Source: a virus
IMG/VR virus record: IMGVR_UViG_3300022074_000483
Span: 1-20,288 of that record
DNA: 20,288 bases
Reading direction: 5' to 3' (one strand)
The notes under the pieces were generated by a model. It did not search any database. It was not told the DNA's origin and worked only from the letters and a program-made list of their open reading frames with translations. Both the position numbers and the translations under genes were made by a program. Positions within the stretch are counted from its first letter, which is position 1, and every line of letters starts with the position of its first letter. Positions 1-9,291 of the stretch are shown here, one piece after another.

Positions 1-213
1 AACTTGAAGTTTAGCAGTATCAGTAACTGGGTGTATATTTATAAATTTAAAAATATATTCTTTGTAAGTTGAGTCTATGCCACTTGTAAAAGATAACGAG
101 GAACTGCTACTAGCTGTCTGTGTAGATATTAAATTTAATCCACCACCTGATATTGAAGCTGGTAAAGCTGTGATTGATGATAATGAATTGTTGGTAGCAA
201 AATTTAATGCCAT
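1..213 (-). CDS. Tail tip-like protein, C-terminally truncated by window edge
   Basis: Only the first 71 codons are present; the reading frame is open at base 1. It starts with ATG at 213-211, which overlaps the stop of the upstream gene as TAATG, so translation is probably coupled. The N-terminus is shorter and different from its three neighbours. From about residue 28 it enters the shared module, with LISTQTAS, FTSGIDSTYKEYIFKF and the NIHP motif. That makes it the sixth consecutive carrier of the same C-terminal module. By position it is a virion tail or receptor-binding component; this is inferred from context, not from a recognised enzyme or lectin motif. The rest of the module lies outside the window. 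Confidence 0.82.
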   Translation of the reverse strand, partial: MALNFATNNSLSSITALPASISGGGLNLISTQTASSSSSLSFTSGIDSTYKEYIFKFINIHPVTDTAKLQV

Positions 214-857
214 TAGTTAACTCCATACATTGTTATGGTTCCTGAATCAATGTTTCCACTAGCAAATTTAAATTGAACTGCATCAATAGCAGATGTTGTA
301 TTTGCATACCCAGCTACATGATGATTTCCTGTGTAATCTCCTTTTTCACAAGCATTACAATTTGAAATAAAATGTTTTACAAAAGTTGTGTTACTTGGTT
401 CAAATAAATGTAAAGTTCCCGATACAGATTGGTCATTATCTGACCCAACTGGAAAAGATAAATTTTGAAAGCCAGTTCCTTGTGCTAGATCATCACCTGG
501 TTCATATTGAATAAAAGCTGTTGCACCATCTTCTTTATGTGCTGCAGTAAAAGCAGTAGAAGTTTTAGTTACATTGTAATTGCTACCACTATCTATTGAA
601 AAATTTATTTGAAAAGCAGTATTATCAGTGCCTGGGTGTATACTATTATACACAAATATATATTCTTTATAGGTACTAGTTAAACCAGAAGTAAAAGAAA
701 CTGTTGAACTTGAACTTGCAGTTGTAGATGCTATCTTAATTAAGTTACCCCCAGCATCTGCTGTCTCTAAACCATTAGCACTTGAATTAAATCTTATGGC
801 TTTACTAGCAGAAGGTGTAACATTTATACTATTAAATTTTAATTTATTAAGAGCCAT
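213..857 (-). CDS. Tail tip-like protein, 214 aa, paralogue 3 of tandem array
   Basis: This is one of three back-to-back 214 aa paralogues. It has a short N-terminal part (MALNKLKFNSINV, then FNSSANGLETADAGG), followed by the shared module: FTSGLTSTYKEYIFVYNSIHP near residues 55-75, DDLAQGTGFQ, LHLFEPSNTTFVKHFI, and a closing AIDAVQFKF-SGNIDSG-TMYG near the C-terminus. The variable stretch has a Cys pair (NCNAC) and HH absent from the copy at 1488-2132. The sequence is rich in Ser, Thr, Gly and Asn, as in beta-rich phage fibre tips. Start and stop overlap both neighbours as TAATG, implying co-translation. A role in host-surface contact is inferred from position behind the fibre gene and from the multi-copy, variable pattern. 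Confidence 0.85.
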   Translation of the reverse strand: MALNKLKFNSINVTPSASKAIRFNSSANGLETADAGGNLIKIASTTASSSSTVSFTSGLTSTYKEYIFVYNSIHPGTDNTAFQINFSIDSGSNYNVTKTSTAFTAAHKEDGATAFIQYEPGDDLAQGTGFQNLSFPVGSDNDQSVSGTLHLFEPSNTTFVKHFISNCNACEKGDYTGNHHVAGYANTTSAIDAVQFKFASGNIDSGTITMYGVN

Positions 858-1501
858 TATTTTGCTAATCCGTACATTTTAATTACACCGCTATCTATGT
901 TACCACTAGAAAATTTAAAATCTACTCCGTCAATAGCTGCGGTTACATTACAATAACCAGCAGTCGTATATAATTCTGCGGCATCTGCGTGACGACAATT
1001 ATGTGTTCTAGCAATAAAATGTTTTACGTGAGTTGTGCTTGATGGTGAAAAAAGAAAAAGGTCACCTGTACACCCCTGATCATTATCTCCACCTGTATTT
1101 TCTGTTAAAGATTGATAAGAAGTGCTTTGCGCTAAATCATATGAAGTCATATAGCTTATTGCGGCATACGCATCATTTTCTGCGTGATTAGATAAAAACA
1201 TAGTTGTAGTTTTTGTTGCATCAAAAGCTGAACTACCATCTCTAAAATTAACTTCAAAATTTTTTTGATCACTAGCTGGGTGCATATTAATAAATTTAAA
1301 TAAATAAGTATCGTATGTGCTATCGATACCTGAAGTAAAACTAGAAGATGATACCCCTGAAGATATAGTGTTCGTAGTAATTAAAGTCATTGCACCTGAA
1401 GCTGCTGTATCAAATCCATTAGCACTTGCATTAAAAGCTAACCCTGTGCTTGCAACTGTTGTCAAATCAAAACTATTAAAATTAAATTTAGTTAACGCCA
1501 T
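857..1501 (-). CDS. Tail tip-like protein, 214 aa, paralogue 2 of tandem array
   Basis: Paralogue of the genes on both sides, identical in length (214 aa). The N-terminus MALTKFNFNSFDL leads to FNASANGFDTAASG, then the module with FTSGIDSTYDTYLFKFINMHP, YDLAQSTSYQ, LFLFSPSSTTHVKHFI and the terminal AIDGVDFKFSSGNIDSG-IKMYG. The central part differs strongly from the neighbours (THNCRHADAAELY, two Cys), while the framing motifs are kept. The ATG at 1501 lies inside the 3' end of the upstream gene (14 bp overlap), and its own stop overlaps the next ATG. There is only a weak, distant GGAG ribosome-binding site, so translational coupling is likely. Function as a tail adhesin-type protein is inferred. 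Confidence 0.85.
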   Translation of the reverse strand: MALTKFNFNSFDLTTVASTGLAFNASANGFDTAASGAMTLITTNTISSGVSSSSFTSGIDSTYDTYLFKFINMHPASDQKNFEVNFRDGSSAFDATKTTTMFLSNHAENDAYAAISYMTSYDLAQSTSYQSLTENTGGDNDQGCTGDLFLFSPSSTTHVKHFIARTHNCRHADAAELYTTAGYCNVTAAIDGVDFKFSSGNIDSGVIKMYGLAK

Positions 1502-2132
1502 ATAATTTTATAACTCCACTTTCAATATTTCCTGAATCAAACTTAAATTGTATAGCATCAATAGCACTTGTTGTATTTAAATAACCAGCAACATAATTTG
1601 AATTAACATAAGCATTAGCAACTAAAGTTCCCGTAGCAATAAAGTGTTTAACAAATGTAGTATTAGATGGGTCAAATAAGTGCAAAGTTCCGCTACCACT
1701 ATCATCAGCATTTGCTGTTATACTACTTAAAACTCTTTGAAAGTCAGTTGATTGTGCTAAATCTTTACCACCCTCATAACTTAAATTTGCTGTTGAATCT
1801 GCTTCATTATGATCTGTTTGAAAAAATGATGAAGTAATATTAATTCCATAAGAACTTCCACTATCTGTGCTACCTTGAAAACTAAAGTGTCTACCAGTTC
1901 CGCCATCAGGGTGAACATTATAAAACTTAAAAATATATTCTTTATAAGTAGAGTCTAATCCGCTTGTAAAAGATATTGTTGAACTATCACTAGCCGTTTG
2001 TGTTGATATTAATTGTAATGCCCCACCAACATCATCCGCAGCTAACCCATTGTTACTAGAGTTAAATGTTATAAATTTACTCGCTGTGGGAGTAACGTTG
2101 AAGCTATTAAAGTTTGCTTTAGATATTGCCAC
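1488..2132 (-). CDS. Tail tip-like protein, 214 aa, paralogue 1 of tandem array (GTG start)
   Basis: First of the three 214 aa paralogues. The start at 2132 is GTG, preceded by an AGGAG ribosome-binding site six bases upstream; a nearby ATG at 2134 is out of frame, so GTG is the supported start. The N-terminus AISKANFNSFNVTPTASKF and FNSSNNGLAADDVGG match the copy at 213-857 closely. The shared module follows: LISTQTAS, FTSGLDSTYKEYIFKFYNVHP, KDLAQSTDFQ, LHLFDPSNTTFVKHFI, AIDAIQFKFDSGNIESG-IKLYG. It has no cysteine pair in the variable part, unlike its two siblings. The role as a virion tail protein that may touch the host is inferred from the fibre gene context. Confidence 0.85.
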   Translation of the reverse strand: MAISKANFNSFNVTPTASKFITFNSSNNGLAADDVGGALQLISTQTASDSSTISFTSGLDSTYKEYIFKFYNVHPDGGTGRHFSFQGSTDSGSSYGINITSSFFQTDHNEADSTANLSYEGGKDLAQSTDFQRVLSSITANADDSGSGTLHLFDPSNTTFVKHFIATGTLVANAYVNSNYVAGYLNTTSAIDAIQFKFDSGNIESGVIKLYGVN

Positions 2133-2141
2133 ATTTTACTC

Positions 2142-3167
2142 CTAACTATTTGCTACACCAAAGAGTGTAAAGTTACCTCTATCAATATTTCCTGAACTTG
2201 AAATAACTTGAATTCTATCTATTGCACGAACTTCGTTTTGCTGACCACCAGAAAAGTTACTTAAATTAAATCCACCACTCGAATCAACATAAGAACATTG
2301 ACCATAAATTAATTTATGTGTATCAGTTTGAGTTGTTTTTCCTACATAAGCTGTAGCATTTAAACATTCATCAGAAGCATTGCCAAGATTCGGAATTGTT
2401 ATATTAACACCTAAATTACCACCACCATTTCCACTTGCTACTTCTGTAGCTCCACCACTAGATCTACCAATAGATGCTCTTCCATAATTATTACTGTAAA
2501 AACCATCCTCCGTTGAATCACCTGTTCTAATAAAAATTTGCACACCATCACTTGCTGTTTTTAAATCTGAAATCATTAGTTGATAAACATTATATGTACT
2601 ATCAATTCCTGATGTAAAATCTACTGAAGAAACACCACTTGTTATATTTTGAGTTTGTAAATGAATTAAACCACCACCACCTTTTATAAGTGAATAGTCT
2701 ATTCTCTTTAATACTCCAGCATCACTAACTAAAAACTCATCAGTATCCGCAGGTTCTGCTGCTAAAGCAGTTTGCCCTGAGATAATATTATTATTTAAAT
2801 GTTCACTTTCAACAGCATCATCGGCTATCTTTGCTTCTGTTACTGCATCTGCAACTAGTTTTGCAGTTGATATACTATTGTCTGATGGTGTGCCTAAATC
2901 TAATACATCCCCTAAAATAATTACAAAGTCTATAACATCACCTGTTGCTAAGTTACTAGCAAAAGTAAGTGTAGATCCTGATACCGTAAAGGAATCACCT
3001 GGTGCTTGTAGTACACCATTAAGAGATACTAACATATGATTAGCATTCTCAGGGGATACCGCTGCACTACCAACGTTTAGTGTGTATGCTGCTTGTCCAT
3101 TAACTACAGTAATCGCATCACACTTTTGAAAGTTTCCTACTACTGGTTGTTTTCCTATATATGCCAT
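2142..3167 (-). CDS. Tail fibre-like protein, 341 aa, anchor plus shared C-terminal module
   Basis: Modular protein. Residues 1-100 open with MAYIGKQPV and a beta-rich region (LNGVLQAPGDSFTVSG, VIDFVIILGDVLDL) typical of marine phage fibre N-termini. A linker near residues 100-165 contains STAKLVADAVTEAKI, LNNNIISG, TDEFLVSDAG and LKRIDYSLI. From about residue 168 the module shared with the downstream tandem paralogues begins (VDFTSGIDSTYNVYQLMI), closing with AIDRIQVISSSGNIDRG-FTLFG. It is a full-length paralogue of the next gene upstream (3177-4151): the same start motif, linker and module are present. A GGAAT ribosome-binding site precedes the ATG. Likely a tail fibre or spike subunit; no catalytic depolymerase motif is visible. 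Confidence 0.85.
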   Translation of the reverse strand: MAYIGKQPVVGNFQKCDAITVVNGQAAYTLNVGSAAVSPENANHMLVSLNGVLQAPGDSFTVSGSTLTFASNLATGDVIDFVIILGDVLDLGTPSDNSISTAKLVADAVTEAKIADDAVESEHLNNNIISGQTALAAEPADTDEFLVSDAGVLKRIDYSLIKGGGGLIHLQTQNITSGVSSVDFTSGIDSTYNVYQLMISDLKTASDGVQIFIRTGDSTEDGFYSNNYGRASIGRSSGGATEVASGNGGGNLGVNITIPNLGNASDECLNATAYVGKTTQTDTHKLIYGQCSYVDSSGGFNLSNFSGGQQNEVRAIDRIQVISSSGNIDRGNFTLFGVANS

Positions 3168-3176
3168 AATTTATTC

Positions 3177-4151
3177 CTATGTAATTCCGTAAAATTTTAT
3201 AATACCTGATGCCATATTACCACTACTAGGTGCTACTTTTAAAGCATTTACAGCAGTTTCACTTCTGTAAGTACCACCAGTGACAGAAATAAAACCAGTT
3301 CCACTAGAGTTATCTCCTGCTGTTGTACCTATTGCAGTTTTATGATTATCTGTGCCTAATAGATCATAGAACCTCATCTCACCACTGCACGTCTCACCAC
3401 TGGCAGTACCTAAATCTGCAATTCCACTCAATTTAATATCATTTCTACCAGTATCTGTTCCAACTTGTACAGTATCTGAACTTGCTATTAAGCCAAACTG
3501 ATTTCTGTGACAATTTCCAGTTGGATATGAAGATCCATTGTCAGAAGAAAAAAATACGTATAACTCCACTCCATCTGCTGATGTTTGAAGATTAGAAAAA
3601 GTAATTTGATAATCTCTGTAAGTGGAGGTTATTAAACTATTATTGAACACAACTTCACTCGTACTACTTAATGTCGTTGTAGATAATAGAGTTTTGTGTG
3701 GTGTAGAAGCTAATAAACTAAAATCAACTCTTTTAATCGTTCCACCATCTGACACTAATAATTCATCTGTGCTGGCTGGAGCTTCTGATAGTGCTGTTAA
3801 ACCAGAAATAATATCGTTATTTAATTTAGCAGCTGTTACGGAAGTGGCAGCTAACTGTGATGTGCCAACAGATGCATCTGCTGGATTAACTGTTTGTAAT
3901 GCTCTACCTAAAAATACAGCATACATAGTATCTGTGCTAGCTGTAGCCGCAGATAATGTAAGTGCAGTTCCAGTAGCTGTGTATGCTTTACCTGAACCAG
4001 GTTGTTGTCTTACGTTATTAATAAATAACGCTATTTCATTTTCATTTGTAACCGCATGATCTAAAGTGTAGGAGGTTGTAGCACTCGTTGAAAATTCTTG
4101 AGTTGCAAATGAAGTAAATGTTTCTGCTGGTAAAGGACCAATATACGCCAT
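3177..4151 (-). CDS. Tail fibre-like protein, 324 aa, anchor plus shared C-terminal module
   Basis: Same architecture as the neighbouring 341 aa protein. MAYIGPLPAETF starts the anchor part, followed by LFINNVRQQPGSGKAY and MYAVFLGRALQTVNP. The linker has TSQLAATSVTAAKLNNDIISG, TDELLVSDGGTIKRVDFSLL. The C-terminal module (from about residue 150) has VVFNNSLITSTYRDYQITFSN and ends with AVNALKVAPSSGNMASG-IKFYG. It is the most divergent version of the module in the array: SGNI has become SGNM and the FTSGIDSTY motif is altered. A GGAG ribosome-binding site lies ahead of the ATG. Together with its paralogue it may link the variable short proteins evolutionarily to true fibres. Function is inferred as tail fibre. 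Confidence 0.85.
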   Translation of the reverse strand: MAYIGPLPAETFTSFATQEFSTSATTSYTLDHAVTNENEIALFINNVRQQPGSGKAYTATGTALTLSAATASTDTMYAVFLGRALQTVNPADASVGTSQLAATSVTAAKLNNDIISGLTALSEAPASTDELLVSDGGTIKRVDFSLLASTPHKTLLSTTTLSSTSEVVFNNSLITSTYRDYQITFSNLQTSADGVELYVFFSSDNGSSYPTGNCHRNQFGLIASSDTVQVGTDTGRNDIKLSGIADLGTASGETCSGEMRFYDLLGTDNHKTAIGTTAGDNSSGTGFISVTGGTYRSETAVNALKVAPSSGNMASGIIKFYGIT

Positions 4152-4152
4152 C

Positions 4153-4518
4153 TTACGTTATCTCCATTATTGATAGCGTGCCTGAAAGTTTATCAGCTAC
4201 AGAACAATCTATTTTGATTTCATCTGTTGCCTCTAAAACTACCTTACCACCTGATAATAATTCAAGTGATGTTCCTGCTGGTATGTTCACATCTTTTACA
4301 AGAAATGAAGTTCCATTAGAAACGTTATTTGCACCACCCCTACTGCCTGTATCACTAACTAATTCTACCTCTGCAGTTACTGCTGAAGTATGAATGTTAG
4401 TAAGTATCAGACCAAGAACAACTGTAGTTGTACTTCCAGCACAAGTGTACATCTTATAAGGTGTACCTGCTGAAGCTGGTTCTGCTGCAAAAGTCACTAC
4501 TTTGAAAGTATTTGCCAT
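4153..4518 (-). CDS. Small virion structural protein, 121 aa
   Basis: A beta-rich 121 aa protein with no Trp. Features are TTTVVLGLILTNIHTSAV near residues 30-47, SFLVKDVNIPAGTSLELL, then GGKVVLEATDEIKI and an end in LSIMEIT. This pattern (NI-hydrophobic, LVKDxxIPAG, VLEATDxI) is familiar from small uncharacterised structural proteins found among tail fibre genes of marine phages; no precise function is known to me. It has a full AGGAGG ribosome-binding site (bases 4528-4533) and its own sigma70-like promoter immediately upstream, so it may be made in large amounts. It is followed at once by the first module-bearing fibre gene. Confidence 0.8.
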   Translation of the reverse strand: MANTFKVVTFAAEPASAGTPYKMYTCAGSTTTVVLGLILTNIHTSAVTAEVELVSDTGSRGGANNVSNGTSFLVKDVNIPAGTSLELLSGGKVVLEATDEIKIDCSVADKLSGTLSIMEIT

Positions 4519-4545
4519 TTATTATATCCTCCTGTTTACCTATAT

Positions 4546-4573
4546 ATTATATCACGTATTGACAAAAAGTCAA
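4546..4573 (-). promoter_or_regulatory. Putative sigma70-type promoter for the distal tail operon
   Basis: Read on the minus strand: -35 TTGACT (4568-4573), 16 bp spacer, -10 TATAAT (4546-4551). It lies in one of the few gaps between tail genes, just ahead of an AGGAGG site and the ATG at 4518. The -35 box sits inside a small perfect inverted repeat, ATTGAC-AAAAA-GTCAAT (4558-4574), which could be an operator or merely a weak hairpin. TATAAT-like strings are common in AT-rich DNA, but the near-perfect -35 at good spacing makes this better than chance by eye. Confidence 0.45.
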
Positions 4574-4580
4574 TGATTAT

Positions 4581-6386
4581 TTATCCTAATGCTATTGCTA
4601 GTGCTGTAGGATCTTCTGTTACAAATCCTGCACTACTTAAATATGTTTTAACATCTGTTAATGCTACTTGTTTCATAGTGCCTGCATCATTTGCAACTAA
4701 TCTATCTGCGTCTACTAAAGTAGTAGCTGTAGCTGATGTATCTCCATCTATTATATTTAATTCTGCTGCTGTTGATGTTACTCCATCTAATATATTTAAT
4801 TCAGCTGTCGTAACTGTCGCACCATCTAATATCTCTAATTCTGCTTCTGATATACCTGCAGATCCAATAGTTACTGTGCCTGCAAAAGTTACATTAGCAC
4901 CACTAAATGTCATAGCTGTAGTAGGTGTAGATCCTGATTTAATTACTAACTCACCACTCGAATTTGTTAAACTACCAAAAGTTGTACCATCATCTTTAAG
5001 TGTGACATCTGCTCCACCTGCATCTAAAACTATATCTGCTGTAGCATCTAAAGTTATACTAGCTCCAGAATCTATTTCTGCTATAACTGGTGTAGTTAAA
5101 GTTTTGTTTGTTAACGTAGATGTAGATGCATCCGATACTAGAGTTGAATCACCACCAGTACTTGGAATTGTTAAAACATTATTAGCACTTTCTGAGTGTG
5201 CTGCAGCTTTAATTTGCTGTCCATGAGAGTTATTCTCACAGTTAAATTGAATAGTACCTTGATTTGTATTACCTTTAATAGTTACATGCCCTGTGCCATT
5301 TGGTGCTAATTCTAAATCTGCATTTGAAGTAGTAACAATATCTGCACCATTCATGTCAAGATTACCACCTAACTGAGGTGTTGTATCTTCAACTACATTT
5401 GATATTGCACTTGATGTAGCAAGTCCTGCTACAATTGTTGATCTTGAAATTTTTTTAAGTCCACCACCTGAAGTATCTACTGCTATAAAGACATCATCAT
5501 TTGCAACTGTAGATATTTCAGATAAACTACCTGCAGCTATTGAATTAAAATTTGTACCATCTGCAATTAATAAATTACCTGCAGTGTTAGTTCCCATAAC
5601 AATATCATCACCTGTTACAGTAAGATCTCCACCAACAACTACATCACTATTAAATGTTGCTTTACCTGCTTCACTACCATCAAGAGTAAGCATAGTAATA
5701 TCAGAACTATTATCAGTTCCTTTAAATATAATATCTGTATCATTTGCAGCTGCATCAATAGTAATACTACCTGAACTTGTTGTAAGATTAACTGCTGCAT
5801 CACCTGCTGAAATATCATCTGCTGCTATAGCTGCTGCTGTAACACCAGTTTGAAAATATGTTTTAAATGTAGTAGCACTTGTAACTCGCATAGTACCACC
5901 ATCATTATGAATAATACCATCTCCATCTGCAACTGCTGTAGTCCCAACTGTAGCACCACCATCTATTAAATTAATCTCTGTTCCTGTTGCTGTAACAGCT
6001 GTACCATCTAAACTTAGTGTATCAATATTAGCTGTGCCATCTATAAATAAATCTTTAAATTCAAGAGAAGAAGTACCTAAGTCAATATCATTATCTGTTA
6101 TAGGTACAATAGCACCATCTTGTATTCTTAATTGTTGTACTGCTGAAGATGATACTTCAACATAAAATTCTAAATGATTATTAGTTGAATCAACTAATAC
6201 TTTATTTAAACTATCAGCATCTCTAATAGATCCAACAGGACCTCCTTCACCCGCAGTGCCATCATGCGTGTGTCCTGTAGTTGCATTAAATGCAGCTAGT
6301 ACTTGGTTAAACTCATCATTAGAATGAGCTGCGGTGATAGTATCACCTGTTGTAAAACTGGATTGTCTTGCTGAATAGCCTGCCAT
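4581..6386 (-). CDS. Long tail fibre protein, 601 aa, with AELNILDG-type repeats
   Basis: The N-terminal region (residues 1-60) has FTTGDTITAAHSNDEFNQV and GHTHDGTAGEG, a pattern typical of the virion-attached end of phage fibres. LGTSSLEFKDLFIDG then marks the start of a repetitive shaft. The shaft carries TGTEINLIDGG, many Asp/Gly/Thr-rich beta repeats (SGSITIDAAAND, GADVTLKDDG) and, near the C-terminus, three 13-residue tandem units of the AELNILDG type known from trimeric fibres. The protein ends in DPTALAIALG without a recognisable adhesin or chaperone domain, so tip functions may come from the separate downstream proteins. Its ATG overlaps the stop of the hub gene as TAATG, pointing to coupled synthesis with the tail hub. 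Confidence 0.88.
   Translation of the reverse strand: MAGYSARQSSFTTGDTITAAHSNDEFNQVLAAFNATTGHTHDGTAGEGGPVGSIRDADSLNKVLVDSTNNHLEFYVEVSSSAVQQLRIQDGAIVPITDNDIDLGTSSLEFKDLFIDGTANIDTLSLDGTAVTATGTEINLIDGGATVGTTAVADGDGIIHNDGGTMRVTSATTFKTYFQTGVTAAAIAADDISAGDAAVNLTTSSGSITIDAAANDTDIIFKGTDNSSDITMLTLDGSEAGKATFNSDVVVGGDLTVTGDDIVMGTNTAGNLLIADGTNFNSIAAGSLSEISTVANDDVFIAVDTSGGGLKKISRSTIVAGLATSSAISNVVEDTTPQLGGNLDMNGADIVTTSNADLELAPNGTGHVTIKGNTNQGTIQFNCENNSHGQQIKAAAHSESANNVLTIPSTGGDSTLVSDASTSTLTNKTLTTPVIAEIDSGASITLDATADIVLDAGGADVTLKDDGTTFGSLTNSSGELVIKSGSTPTTAMTFSGANVTFAGTVTIGSAGISEAELEILDGATVTTAELNILDGVTSTAAELNIIDGDTSATATTLVDADRLVANDAGTMKQVALTDVKTYLSSAGFVTEDPTALAIALG
4743..4860 (-). repeat. Three 39-bp tandem repeats in fibre gene
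   Basis: Three imperfect direct repeats with a 39 bp period, seen as recurring CCATCTA/TTTAATTC-like blocks with unit starts near 4744, 4783 and 4822. They encode the 13-residue units LEILDGATVTTAE, LNILDGVTSTAAE and LNIIDGDTSATAT. The coding phase is kept, so copy number could change without breaking the frame. Confidence 0.75.
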
Positions 6387-7939: not shown

Positions 7940-8188
7940 TTAACTTCTTTTATCTGCTAGTTTTTGTAATTGTATTAATTCTGATTTTGTTAAACCTGGT
8001 GGTATTAAATCTTTAACAGGATCACCAGATTGATATGCACTAATATATTTATTAATTTGTGTTATACTCATTTTATCTGATAAATCTGCTGTTTGCATAT
8101 TTAATTTATCATTAGCTTTTTTTTCACCATCCATATTATCAGTAACTTTCATACCTACTTTTTTTTCTTCTTCTTTTCTAATAGCCAT
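7940..8188 (-). CDS. Small charged protein between adaptor and hub, 82 aa, unknown
   Basis: Not recognised. The N-terminal half is strongly charged (IRKEEEKKVGMKV, DGEKKANDK). The C-terminal half looks folded and helical: MSITQINKYISAYQSGDPV, then LIPPGLTKSELIQLQKLADKR. The ATG at 8188 overlaps the stop of the adaptor gene as TAATG, so the two are likely translated together. Position suggests a minor virion or assembly factor for the neck or tail; nothing in the sequence shows a catalytic role. Confidence 0.7.
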   Translation of the reverse strand: MAIRKEEEKKVGMKVTDNMDGEKKANDKLNMQTADLSDKMSITQINKYISAYQSGDPVKDLIPPGLTKSELIQLQKLADKRS

Positions 8189-9291
8189 TAACTAACTCTG
8201 CCTCCTATATTTGTTGCAATACTTTCGCCAATTACATCAGTTCTCATATAATCATTTTTAGTTGCATAATCTACTTTTAATAATCTAAGTTTTCTTTGAA
8301 AGTCTCTATCAGCTAATTGTGCATGTTGTGGATCTGATCTTAACATGTATGTATAGTATTTAGCTCTATCTACTATCAAAGTTCTAAATCTGTCAGGTAA
8401 ACTCATATTATCACCGTGAGCAGACAAATCTGTATGTGTTGTATAATAATCAAAACTTACTGTGTATTCATTTGTATTTGGCCTTGGACTTATTCCAAAT
8501 GCAGAATGATCTGGCAAAATATAAACTCTTAATGGCACAGAATAATTACCTTCATTATTTGTATCATCAGTTGGTTTATGATTTTGTAAATAACTATCAT
8601 ATGTTATGTATGATAATTTTCTAGTTGCAATATCACTTCTAGATATTCTAACATAGTCAACATCTAATTGAACACCAGATGCTTCTAAGTATATATAAGA
8701 AGTTTGTGCTGTTGCAGTAAATGTTGTTTGTAATATATCACCTTCTCTAAAATTAGTTACTGCTTTTGTTGTATTTAAATTTTGTGTTCCACCTGCTGAT
8801 GTTCCAACTCTTACAATTAATGCAGTGCTAGAACTATTTGGACTTAAAACTCTAACTTGTAATCTATAAGTTTTATTTACTGTAGTGTTAATAGCCTGAT
8901 AAGCTGCTGCACTATTTAAATTTAATCTACCATTACCACTTGATGTATGTGATGGTGATCCATCTCCAGTTGTCCAGCTATTTATATTAGACGTAAATTC
9001 ACCATTAGTTACTAATTCTTTTGGTCTTAACGAAAATGAATCCATATCTGCTTTTCTAAAATCAGCAGGAAATGTATATTCATTAGTTCCTATAGTTAAA
9101 TCTTGTGTAGTTCTAGAATATAATAAAGGTATTTCACCTGTTTCATTATAAATATCATGAATACCCTTATTAATAAAATCTTTTACTGCAGTTTGTATAC
9201 CTCGACTTGAACTAAACGTACTAGAGGTTAACTCTGTTTCGTTTAATTCTCTAAGTACACTATTTGCTAACGTTAAGTAGGTTGTTGCCAT
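8188..9291 (-). CDS. Head-tail adaptor (P22 gp4-like, putative) with inserted carbohydrate-binding-like domain
   Basis: 367 aa. Residues 1-90 (LTLANSVLRELNE, GIQTAVKDFINKGIHDIYN, YTFPADFRKADMDSFSL) and residues 220-367 (SYITYDSYLQN, VYILPDHSAFGISPRP, LPDRFRTLIVDRAKYYTYMLR, DRDFQRKLRLLKVDY) look like the two halves of a podovirus adaptor that plugs the portal. Such proteins are usually about 200-250 aa. Between the halves, residues about 92-219 begin with ELVTNGEFTSNINSWTT and end with VQLDVDYVRISRSD, the start and finish typical of jelly-roll carbohydrate-binding modules. So a beta-sandwich domain appears inserted in the adaptor. The start at 9291 lies within the upstream small gene (32 bp overlap). 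Adaptor identity is inferred from pattern and position. Confidence 0.75.
   Translation of the reverse strand: MATTYLTLANSVLRELNETELTSSTFSSSRGIQTAVKDFINKGIHDIYNETGEIPLLYSRTTQDLTIGTNEYTFPADFRKADMDSFSLRPKELVTNGEFTSNINSWTTGDGSPSHTSSGNGRLNLNSAAAYQAINTTVNKTYRLQVRVLSPNSSSTALIVRVGTSAGGTQNLNTTKAVTNFREGDILQTTFTATAQTSYIYLEASGVQLDVDYVRISRSDIATRKLSYITYDSYLQNHKPTDDTNNEGNYSVPLRVYILPDHSAFGISPRPNTNEYTVSFDYYTTHTDLSAHGDNMSLPDRFRTLIVDRAKYYTYMLRSDPQHAQLADRDFQRKLRLLKVDYATKNDYMRTDVIGESIATNIGGRVS

Follow-up and report, generated by a model that had tools for sequence, protein, structure and literature searches.

The window analysed here, the whole 20,288-nucleotide stretch of IMG/VR record IMGVR_UViG_3300022074_000483, is a fragment of an HMO-2011-type pelagiphage; its nearest isolate is HTVC033P, which lacks the gene array described below. 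At one end of the window lie six adjoining genes for proteins with a common C-terminal module, comprising three complete free-standing proteins (C1-C3), a further free-standing one (C0) and two anchored fibres, F1 and F2 (Table 1). They are located in a tail-fibre operon, in keeping with the initial annotation of them as tail proteins. The main fibre-like protein of this operon has 94% amino acid identity over 261 aa with its counterpart in a related locus, L030, and its equivalents in isolates are annotated as tail fiber, those of the 121-aa gene as virion structural protein. The start of C0 and the stop of C1 overlap by 1 nt, as do C2 and C1, and the 14-nt overlap of C3 and C2 is the most frequent one between the corresponding genes (classes a and b, below) in the family. 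Directly downstream of the module genes in the isolates tested is a PF16778 tail-assembly chaperone gene, and most related loci have a gene of 95-99 aa at the chaperone position; a place in a tail-fibre operon together with an assembly chaperone is one expected of receptor-binding fibres.

Table 1. Module genes and neighbouring genes of the tail-fibre operon in the window
Feature	Position	Strand	Description
C0	1-213	-	71 aa, N-terminal part of free-standing module protein; cut by contig end
C1	213-857	-	214 aa, free-standing module protein; class c, triplet 1
C2	857-1501	-	214 aa, free-standing module protein; class b, triplet 1
C3	1488-2132	-	214 aa, GTG start, free-standing module protein; class a, triplet 1
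F1	2142-3167	-	341 aa, anchored fibre: N-terminal MAYIG domain, linker, C-terminal module (~165-341)
F2	3177-4151	-	324 aa, anchored fibre, layout as F1
121-aa gene	4153-4518	-	precedes anchored fibres in nearly all related loci (gene maps)
Main fibre-like protein	4581-6386	-	601 aa, begins operon of module genes

The common module noted in the initial annotation is genuine, with the extent and motifs described there. All five complete proteins end with A(I/V)(D/N)-x7-SGN(I/M)-x2-G-x4-(Y/F)G, C1-C3 retain DLAQ(S/G)T and VKHFI, and FTSG(I/L) is present in C0-C3 and F1, with a diverged form in F2; cysteines number two in C1, three in C2 and none in C3. The family PHROG 14820, whose function is unannotated, matches C1, C2 and C3 over the whole protein (E 4.5e-73, 6e-63 and 1.5e-66) and, weakly, the C-terminal parts of F1 (161-339, E 3e-7) and F2 (152-323, E 3e-9), and a profile built from C1-C3 recovers F1 at 6.5e-11 and F2 at 2.1e-10, so that the likeness is not due to chance. 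F1 and F2 also match the tail fiber family PHROG 18673 (E 4e-50 and 7e-10), and the copies are linked by DNA repeats of 60-79% identity. A Pfam search with the module gave no match, and the profile, when run against PDB sequences, had a single weak one, to a cement protein (E 0.14).

Structure prediction is consistent with the expectation of a beta-sandwich module whose loops are hypervariable. The AlphaFold2 model of C1 (pLDDT 89.9) and the predicted C-terminal beta-sandwich of F1 show the same order of strands. The best fold matches of C1 were to a GH32 C-terminal domain (VIA Z 7.9) and galectin-9 (7.7), where a Z below 8 denotes a possibly common arrangement, and those of F1 reached 8.3, scores that do not suffice to class the module as a galectin. 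The fold matches listed comprise beta-sandwich lectins along with GH32 C-terminal domains, and T4 gp37 is absent among them. It is highly improbable, given that the domain is common to the anchored fibres and that the genes lie between those fibres and the tail-assembly chaperone gene, that the free-standing copies are soluble non-virion products such as decoys or lysis aids which happen to be encoded in a tail operon, even though our literature search found no virion proteomics for the module proteins and the isolates annotate them as hypothetical.

The array is cut by the edge of the window, so six is not its real copy number, and the number of copies is better judged from about 380 related loci. 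Among the 208 complete arrays sampled, 207 carry exactly three or six free-standing copies. Distinct runs clear of locus ends with three or six copies number 203 (183 with three, 20 with six); five further loci gave seven odd entries, and on inspection four of these loci still have three copies and one (L313) has five. Open-ended expansion is rejected by this distribution, in which copy numbers of 1, 2, 4 or 5 almost never occur, the phage Lederberg EXVC029P with its single free-standing copy being one such case. The stepwise duplication envisaged in the initial annotation, if taken as an open-ended widening of the repertoire, was thus not borne out: copies come in threes or sixes, in three old orthologous classes, with order and overlaps kept. 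This combination looks like a part of fixed stoichiometry rather than a growing repertoire, and the near-constant sets of three, or two sets of three, suggest a tip built from three unlike chains.

On the evidence of sequence, the free-standing copies belong to three old subunit classes (a, b and c) whose order is usually fixed. On a tree of 287 copies the position labels require 13 changes, against 136 with shuffled labels, and on a 91-row IQ-TREE tree they require 5-6 against 44. When class profiles were trained on long triplets and applied to short ones, or the other way round, 183 of 223 triplets were called as having every class once (22% would be expected by chance); the other 40 are counted against a heterotrimer. 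In six loci triplet 1 is reversed (c-b-a) and still has one of each class. Class-specific residues concentrate in the head, at residues 53-71, at residues 148-153 and in the last strand. Tree placement puts C1 in class c, C2 in class b and C3 in class a, the last being 96% identical to the class a protein of triplet 1 in L034. The best class profile for C0 is a, by a margin of 39 bits, and its position is that of the first gene of triplet 2 (T2a) in L030 and L034; C0 is taken here as T2a, so that the window contains triplet 1 in full and the opening gene of a second. The initial annotation had held that invariant one-to-one orthologues would speak against its proposal; orthologous classes do exist, but they are highly variable.

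This variability is greatest in the C-terminal domains, which differ sharply among near relatives. Between the window and L030 the five complete proteins are 84-99% identical at their N-termini and only 25-59% in their C-terminal domains. The module evolves fast, which is counted in favour of the earlier proposal: its omega is about 0.47, that of backbone genes 0.07-0.20, and the pooled omega of the loops 0.81. Whole-protein dN/dS above 1 was found in only 2 of 189 pairs. Sequence comparisons indicate that entire triplets move between positions and between phage lineages: triplet 2 of L042 is close to triplet 1 of L034 in all three genes, and L290 and L294 have triplet 1 in common and not triplet 2. 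Exchange of the C-terminal domains themselves may well be the cause of their divergence. The fast-evolving loops, and the independent variation of the bodies between copies, might be read as independent adhesins that widen host range, each with its own receptor and freely gained or lost, as first envisaged. This is improbable, however, because the copy numbers that free gain and loss would produce are nearly absent, the classes are old rather than recent duplicates, and the heads are matched.

The matching of heads is apparent from similarity within triplets, where the N-terminal heads (about residues 25-45) covary and the C-terminal beta-sandwich domains vary independently. Head similarity correlates at r 0.39-0.51 in short triplets and 0.63-0.78 in long ones, against 0.06-0.15 for bodies. 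Gene conversion among the three heads is not supported as the cause, since heads are no more identical inside a triplet than between triplets, except slightly for the long b-c pair. The cross-triplet control is clean in the 22 genomes whose triplets have an anchored fibre between them; in the back-to-back architecture heads correlate across a genome's two triplets at r 0.62-0.84, a figure confounded by lineage. The upstream fibre shows a correlation with the heads as well, in its N-terminal anchor domain (r about 0.2-0.6) but not in its C-terminus. Phage lineage or shared docking would therefore account for some of the head signal.

Shared docking is central to a reading that we consider unlikely, in which three homotrimeric adhesins sit next to one another at a single anchor or tail site, their heads fitting a common dock or stacking in a fixed order. 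The fixed number, the order and the head covariation, including the correlation with the anchor, would then be explained without mixed trimers; phage fibre tips are usually homotrimers, and Lederberg keeps a single copy, which is also counted against a heterotrimer. This reading does not by itself explain why there should be three or six copies and why a triplet, reversed ones included, should have every class once, and the head-head correlation persists once the anchor N-terminus and the bodies are allowed for (partial r 0.32-0.74). The published analogue, moreover, is described as a heterotrimer (PMC12724248). A test of ring handedness, comparing same and transposed covariation matrices, gave no signal, which is counted against a heterotrimer with a direct-contact ring; its z-scores were inflated by conserved columns, and the repeat used variable columns only.

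The explanation we favour, as probable though well short of certain, is that C3, C2 and C1, as unlike subunits a, b and c, together form a single receptor-binding tip, and that this tip is most likely a 1:1:1 heterotrimer. Of the two options in the initial annotation, free-standing adhesins and a mixed tip, the latter fits best, and the earlier proposal is to that extent supported. The three chains would be made from overlapping genes followed by the tail-assembly chaperone gene. In each chain a short N-terminal head (about 45 residues) would serve for chain assembly, for docking on the virion or for both, and the variable loops of a C-terminal beta-sandwich (about 150 residues) would touch the host surface. 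Heads would hold the set together, and binding domains would be swapped by recombination, altering recognition chain by chain. The two anchored fibres, F1 and F2, have a tip domain of this kind too, their number agreeing with the two triplets per genome, and a virion would bear two a+b+c sets. More tentatively, and with somewhat less than even confidence, these may be two heterotrimeric tips, a-b-c and a'-b'-c', expressed together but insulated from each other and carried by the two anchored fibres, with matched heads separating the sets and six binding domains exchanged independently, giving combinatorial receptor recognition.

The closest precedent is the virophage DSLV2, in which three consecutive tail proteins co-purify as a 1:1:1 heterotrimer that binds bacterial cells (PMC12724248). 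As there, the pelagiphage triplets consist of related tail genes, three in a row, which group into clades according to their position and have diverged binding domains. DSLV2 differs in being a virophage with one set, described as T4 gp37-like, and the portion of that report available mentions neither anchored partner fibres nor a second set, unlike the pelagiphage arrays. Within pelagiphages, HTVC010P, HTVC019P and HTVC034P have three consecutive PHROG 14820 copies and then the chaperone gene, one triplet as against two in window-type relatives. In Lederberg a member of the same family (E 9e-24) is flanked by an anchored fibre and the chaperone gene, and this one free-standing copy is presumably a homomeric version. 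Marine phage metaviromic islands with C1q-like and tail-fibre genes likewise place hypervariable host-recognition genes, in HTVC010P-related pelagiphages, beside a tail fibre, and that fibre also has conserved N-terminal and variable C-terminal parts; the portion of that report available describes no three-subunit organisation or class structure (PMC3909814). Our literature search, which covered papers outside subscription journals, turned up no account of the pelagiphage triplet.

SAR11 bacteria are among the most abundant marine hosts, and their viruses are among the commonest in the ocean. To our knowledge, how these viruses recognise host cells is largely unknown. If the proposal is true, a fixed three-part tip would point to candidate proteins for recognition by SAR11 phages, and matched heads with exchangeable binding domains would explain the variability of this region in ocean viromes. 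The heterotrimeric virophage tail would also have a counterpart among phages, and the natural series of copy numbers, from one (Lederberg) through three (HTVC010P) to six (HMO-2011-type relatives), may illustrate how a homomeric part becomes heteromeric.

The window is a linear IMG/VR virus record of 20,288 bases. Compared at the protein level with HTVC033P, a Pelagibacter phage of the HMO-2011 type that infects strain HTCC1062, its portal is 86% and its large terminase 89% identical. All listed genes of its tail-fibre operon lie on the minus strand. The initial annotation described six consecutive tail proteins sharing one C-terminal module, and all six open reading frames, with their coordinates and motifs, match that description: two anchored fibres (F1 and F2), three complete free-standing proteins (C3, C2 and C1) and one copy cut by the contig end (C0). 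The 214-aa C1, C2 and C3 belong to PHROG 14820, a family without an assigned function in PHROG, which the C-terminal parts of F1 and F2 match weakly; a Pfam search gave no family for the module. The genes overlap by 14 nt (C3/C2) or 1 nt (C2/C1 and C1/C0). A module search of the phage collection returned no match in HTVC033P, whose annotated genes downstream of the 121-aa gene differ from those of the window, and thus the isolate closest to this backbone is without the array.

Features and loci of separate interest in the window and related records
Feature	Location	Strand	Observation
Adaptor gene	window 8188-9291	-	SU10-type adaptor protein (PF24175, E 1e-19); N-terminal to this match, weak CBM_4_9 carbohydrate-binding-like stretch at residues 92-204 (E 0.005, under curated cut-off)
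Repeats in 601-aa fibre gene	window 4734-4849		three 39-base tandem repeats close to the 3' end of the gene, encoding TAELNxLDG-like repeats
Array in L313	745-3747		five copies, class calls a b c b c; sole clear exception to the triplet rule
Array in L088	1144-2712		third copy within a 522-aa protein, module preceded by a long glycine-rich N-terminal stretch
Array in L381 (Roseovarius MAG)	2193-4546		203-aa free-standing copy and a copy inside a 580-aa ORF; at least two copies

In related loci, free-standing copies almost always occur in threes or sixes. About 380 loci were gathered from IMG/VR by five scans with different module queries and one with the protein of phage Lederberg, the last returning two loci. 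Runs of free-standing copies that differ in sequence and end at least 250 nt from the locus end comprised three copies in 183 cases and six in 20, with seven odd entries from five loci. Four of these five (L342, L367, L376 and L214) proved on inspection still to have three copies, the causes among them being a gap, a fusion, an insertion and frameshifts, so that the copy number is divisible by three in 207 of 208 arrays, in a sample that is non-random because loci were selected for their similarity and a number of contigs were retrieved repeatedly. Annotated phages with the module amount to six records, all pelagiphages (HTVC034P once, HTVC010P and HTVC019P twice each, and Lederberg). HTVC010P, HTVC034P and HTVC019P, the last assigned to Autographiviridae, each have three consecutive copies beside fibre genes; in HTVC019P and HTVC034P the triplet is followed by a gene for a Phage_tail_APC chaperone (PF16778), and the corresponding HTVC010P gene matches the chaperone PHROG common to those two. 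Lederberg has a single copy, followed by a Phage_tail_APC-type chaperone gene. A search of 84,980 species genomes of bacteria and archaea gave just four matching loci. Two come from Pelagibacter genomes, single-cell or uncultured, and all but one of the four have three copies.

The copies fall into three classes, a, b and c, that follow position within the triplet. On a FastTree phylogeny of 287 distinct copies, position needs 13 changes (136 with shuffled labels) and membership of the first or second triplet (T1 or T2) needs 18 (72 shuffled), and an IQ-TREE phylogeny of 90 copies plus the Lederberg protein needs 6 for all groups (44 shuffled). Mean identities agree, T1a being nearest T2a, T1b nearest T2b and T1c nearest T2c, a pattern most simply explained if the triplet was duplicated as a unit. 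Class profiles built from long triplets and applied to short ones, and vice versa, recovered one of each class in 183 of 223 triplets, against a chance expectation of 22%; in 176 triplets the order was abc. Six loci (L226, L290, L294, L352, L355 and L359) have, with good margins, a reversed first triplet, c-b-a, followed by an a-b-c triplet; two of them have one first triplet in common. At the a/b junction neighbouring copies overlap by 14 or 1 nt, and at b/c the overlap is usually 1 nt. In the window C3 reads as a, C2 as b, C1 as c and C0 as a again.

The common gene order in maps of related loci is a fibre of about 600 aa, the 121-aa gene, an anchored fibre and a triplet (about 214-220 aa), then a second anchored fibre, a triplet (about 201-210 aa) and a gene of 95-99 aa. 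The window's lineage has the two anchored fibres ahead of both triplets, which lie back to back; judging from relatives L030 and L034, T2a, T2b, T2c and the 95/96-aa gene should lie past the window edge. Anchored fibres without a detectable C-terminal module usually precede a gene of about 100 aa in these maps, and module-bearing ones mostly lack such a gene after them, an apparent mutual exclusion.

An AlphaFold2 model of C1 is all-beta (pLDDT 89.9). Over residues 37-214 its closest matches among solved folds are, at Z 7-8, galectins and the sandwich at the C-terminus of GH32 enzymes, and a Haloferax virus tail fibre scores 6.7, values that do not prove kinship; residues 165-341 of F1 are modelled as the same kind of sandwich. 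A BFVD search matched Lederberg and more than 100 other viral models. Entropy (C1 numbering, used also for heads and bodies) is maximal at residues 75-84, 105-124, 135-144 and 165-184, reaching 3.15 bits at 165-174. Among 189 same-class pairs median omega is 0.47, with 0.81 in pooled loops and 0.39 in head plus core; backbone genes compared with HTVC033P (portal, terminase, capsid and one tail gene) give 0.07-0.20. Between the window and L030 the main fibre is 94% and the 121-aa protein 100% identical. Identity at the N- and C-terminus is 99% and 31% in F2 and 94% and 25% in F1, and that of head and body is 96% and 59% in C3, 84% and 58% in C2, and 96% and 59% in C1. L263, with a different backbone, has the F1 C-terminus in common with the window at 90%. 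The simplest cause of the N-/C-terminal contrast would be exchange by recombination, and whole triplets move too, the second triplet of L042 being near the first of L034 in all three genes. Mizuno and colleagues (PMC3909814) described hypervariable genes for host recognition in related phages.

Mutual information between subunits peaks at residues 25-45 for all three pairs, in long and short triplets, and there exceeds the maximum from scrambled pairings. Between subunits, the similarity of heads is correlated at 0.39-0.51 (short triplets) and 0.63-0.78 (long triplets). This head correlation drops to about zero beyond residue 40, except for b-c, where it reaches about residue 60, and the correlation of bodies is only 0.06-0.15. 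Head similarity also follows that of the upstream fibre's N-terminal domain, but the C-terminus of that fibre shows no such correlation; where the two triplets lie back to back, their heads correlate with each other as well. Part of the head signal is lineage; with fibre N-terminus and bodies controlled for, the partial correlation is still 0.32-0.43 in short and 0.55-0.74 in long triplets. Homogenisation of heads within a triplet is unlikely, because same-triplet heads are no more identical to one another than to those of other triplets. Covariation was also searched for handedness of the subunit arrangement, and none was found.

The simplest account is that a tip would combine an a, a b and a c chain, held together by their matched heads. 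Head covariation does not distinguish direct contact between the chains from docking on a common partner; three homotrimers sharing one docking site are a rather less likely alternative. In virophage DSLV2 (PMC12724248), the products of three adjacent tail genes fall into clades by position and co-purify as a heterotrimer. The pelagiphage triplet is likewise consecutive and divided by position; this precedent makes the heterotrimer account less novel and more plausible. A literature search, mostly outside subscription papers, found no description of the pelagiphage triplet. A heterotrimeric a-b-c tip, if borne on the virion, would display three different putative binding domains, and each phage of the window's lineage would carry two such sets.
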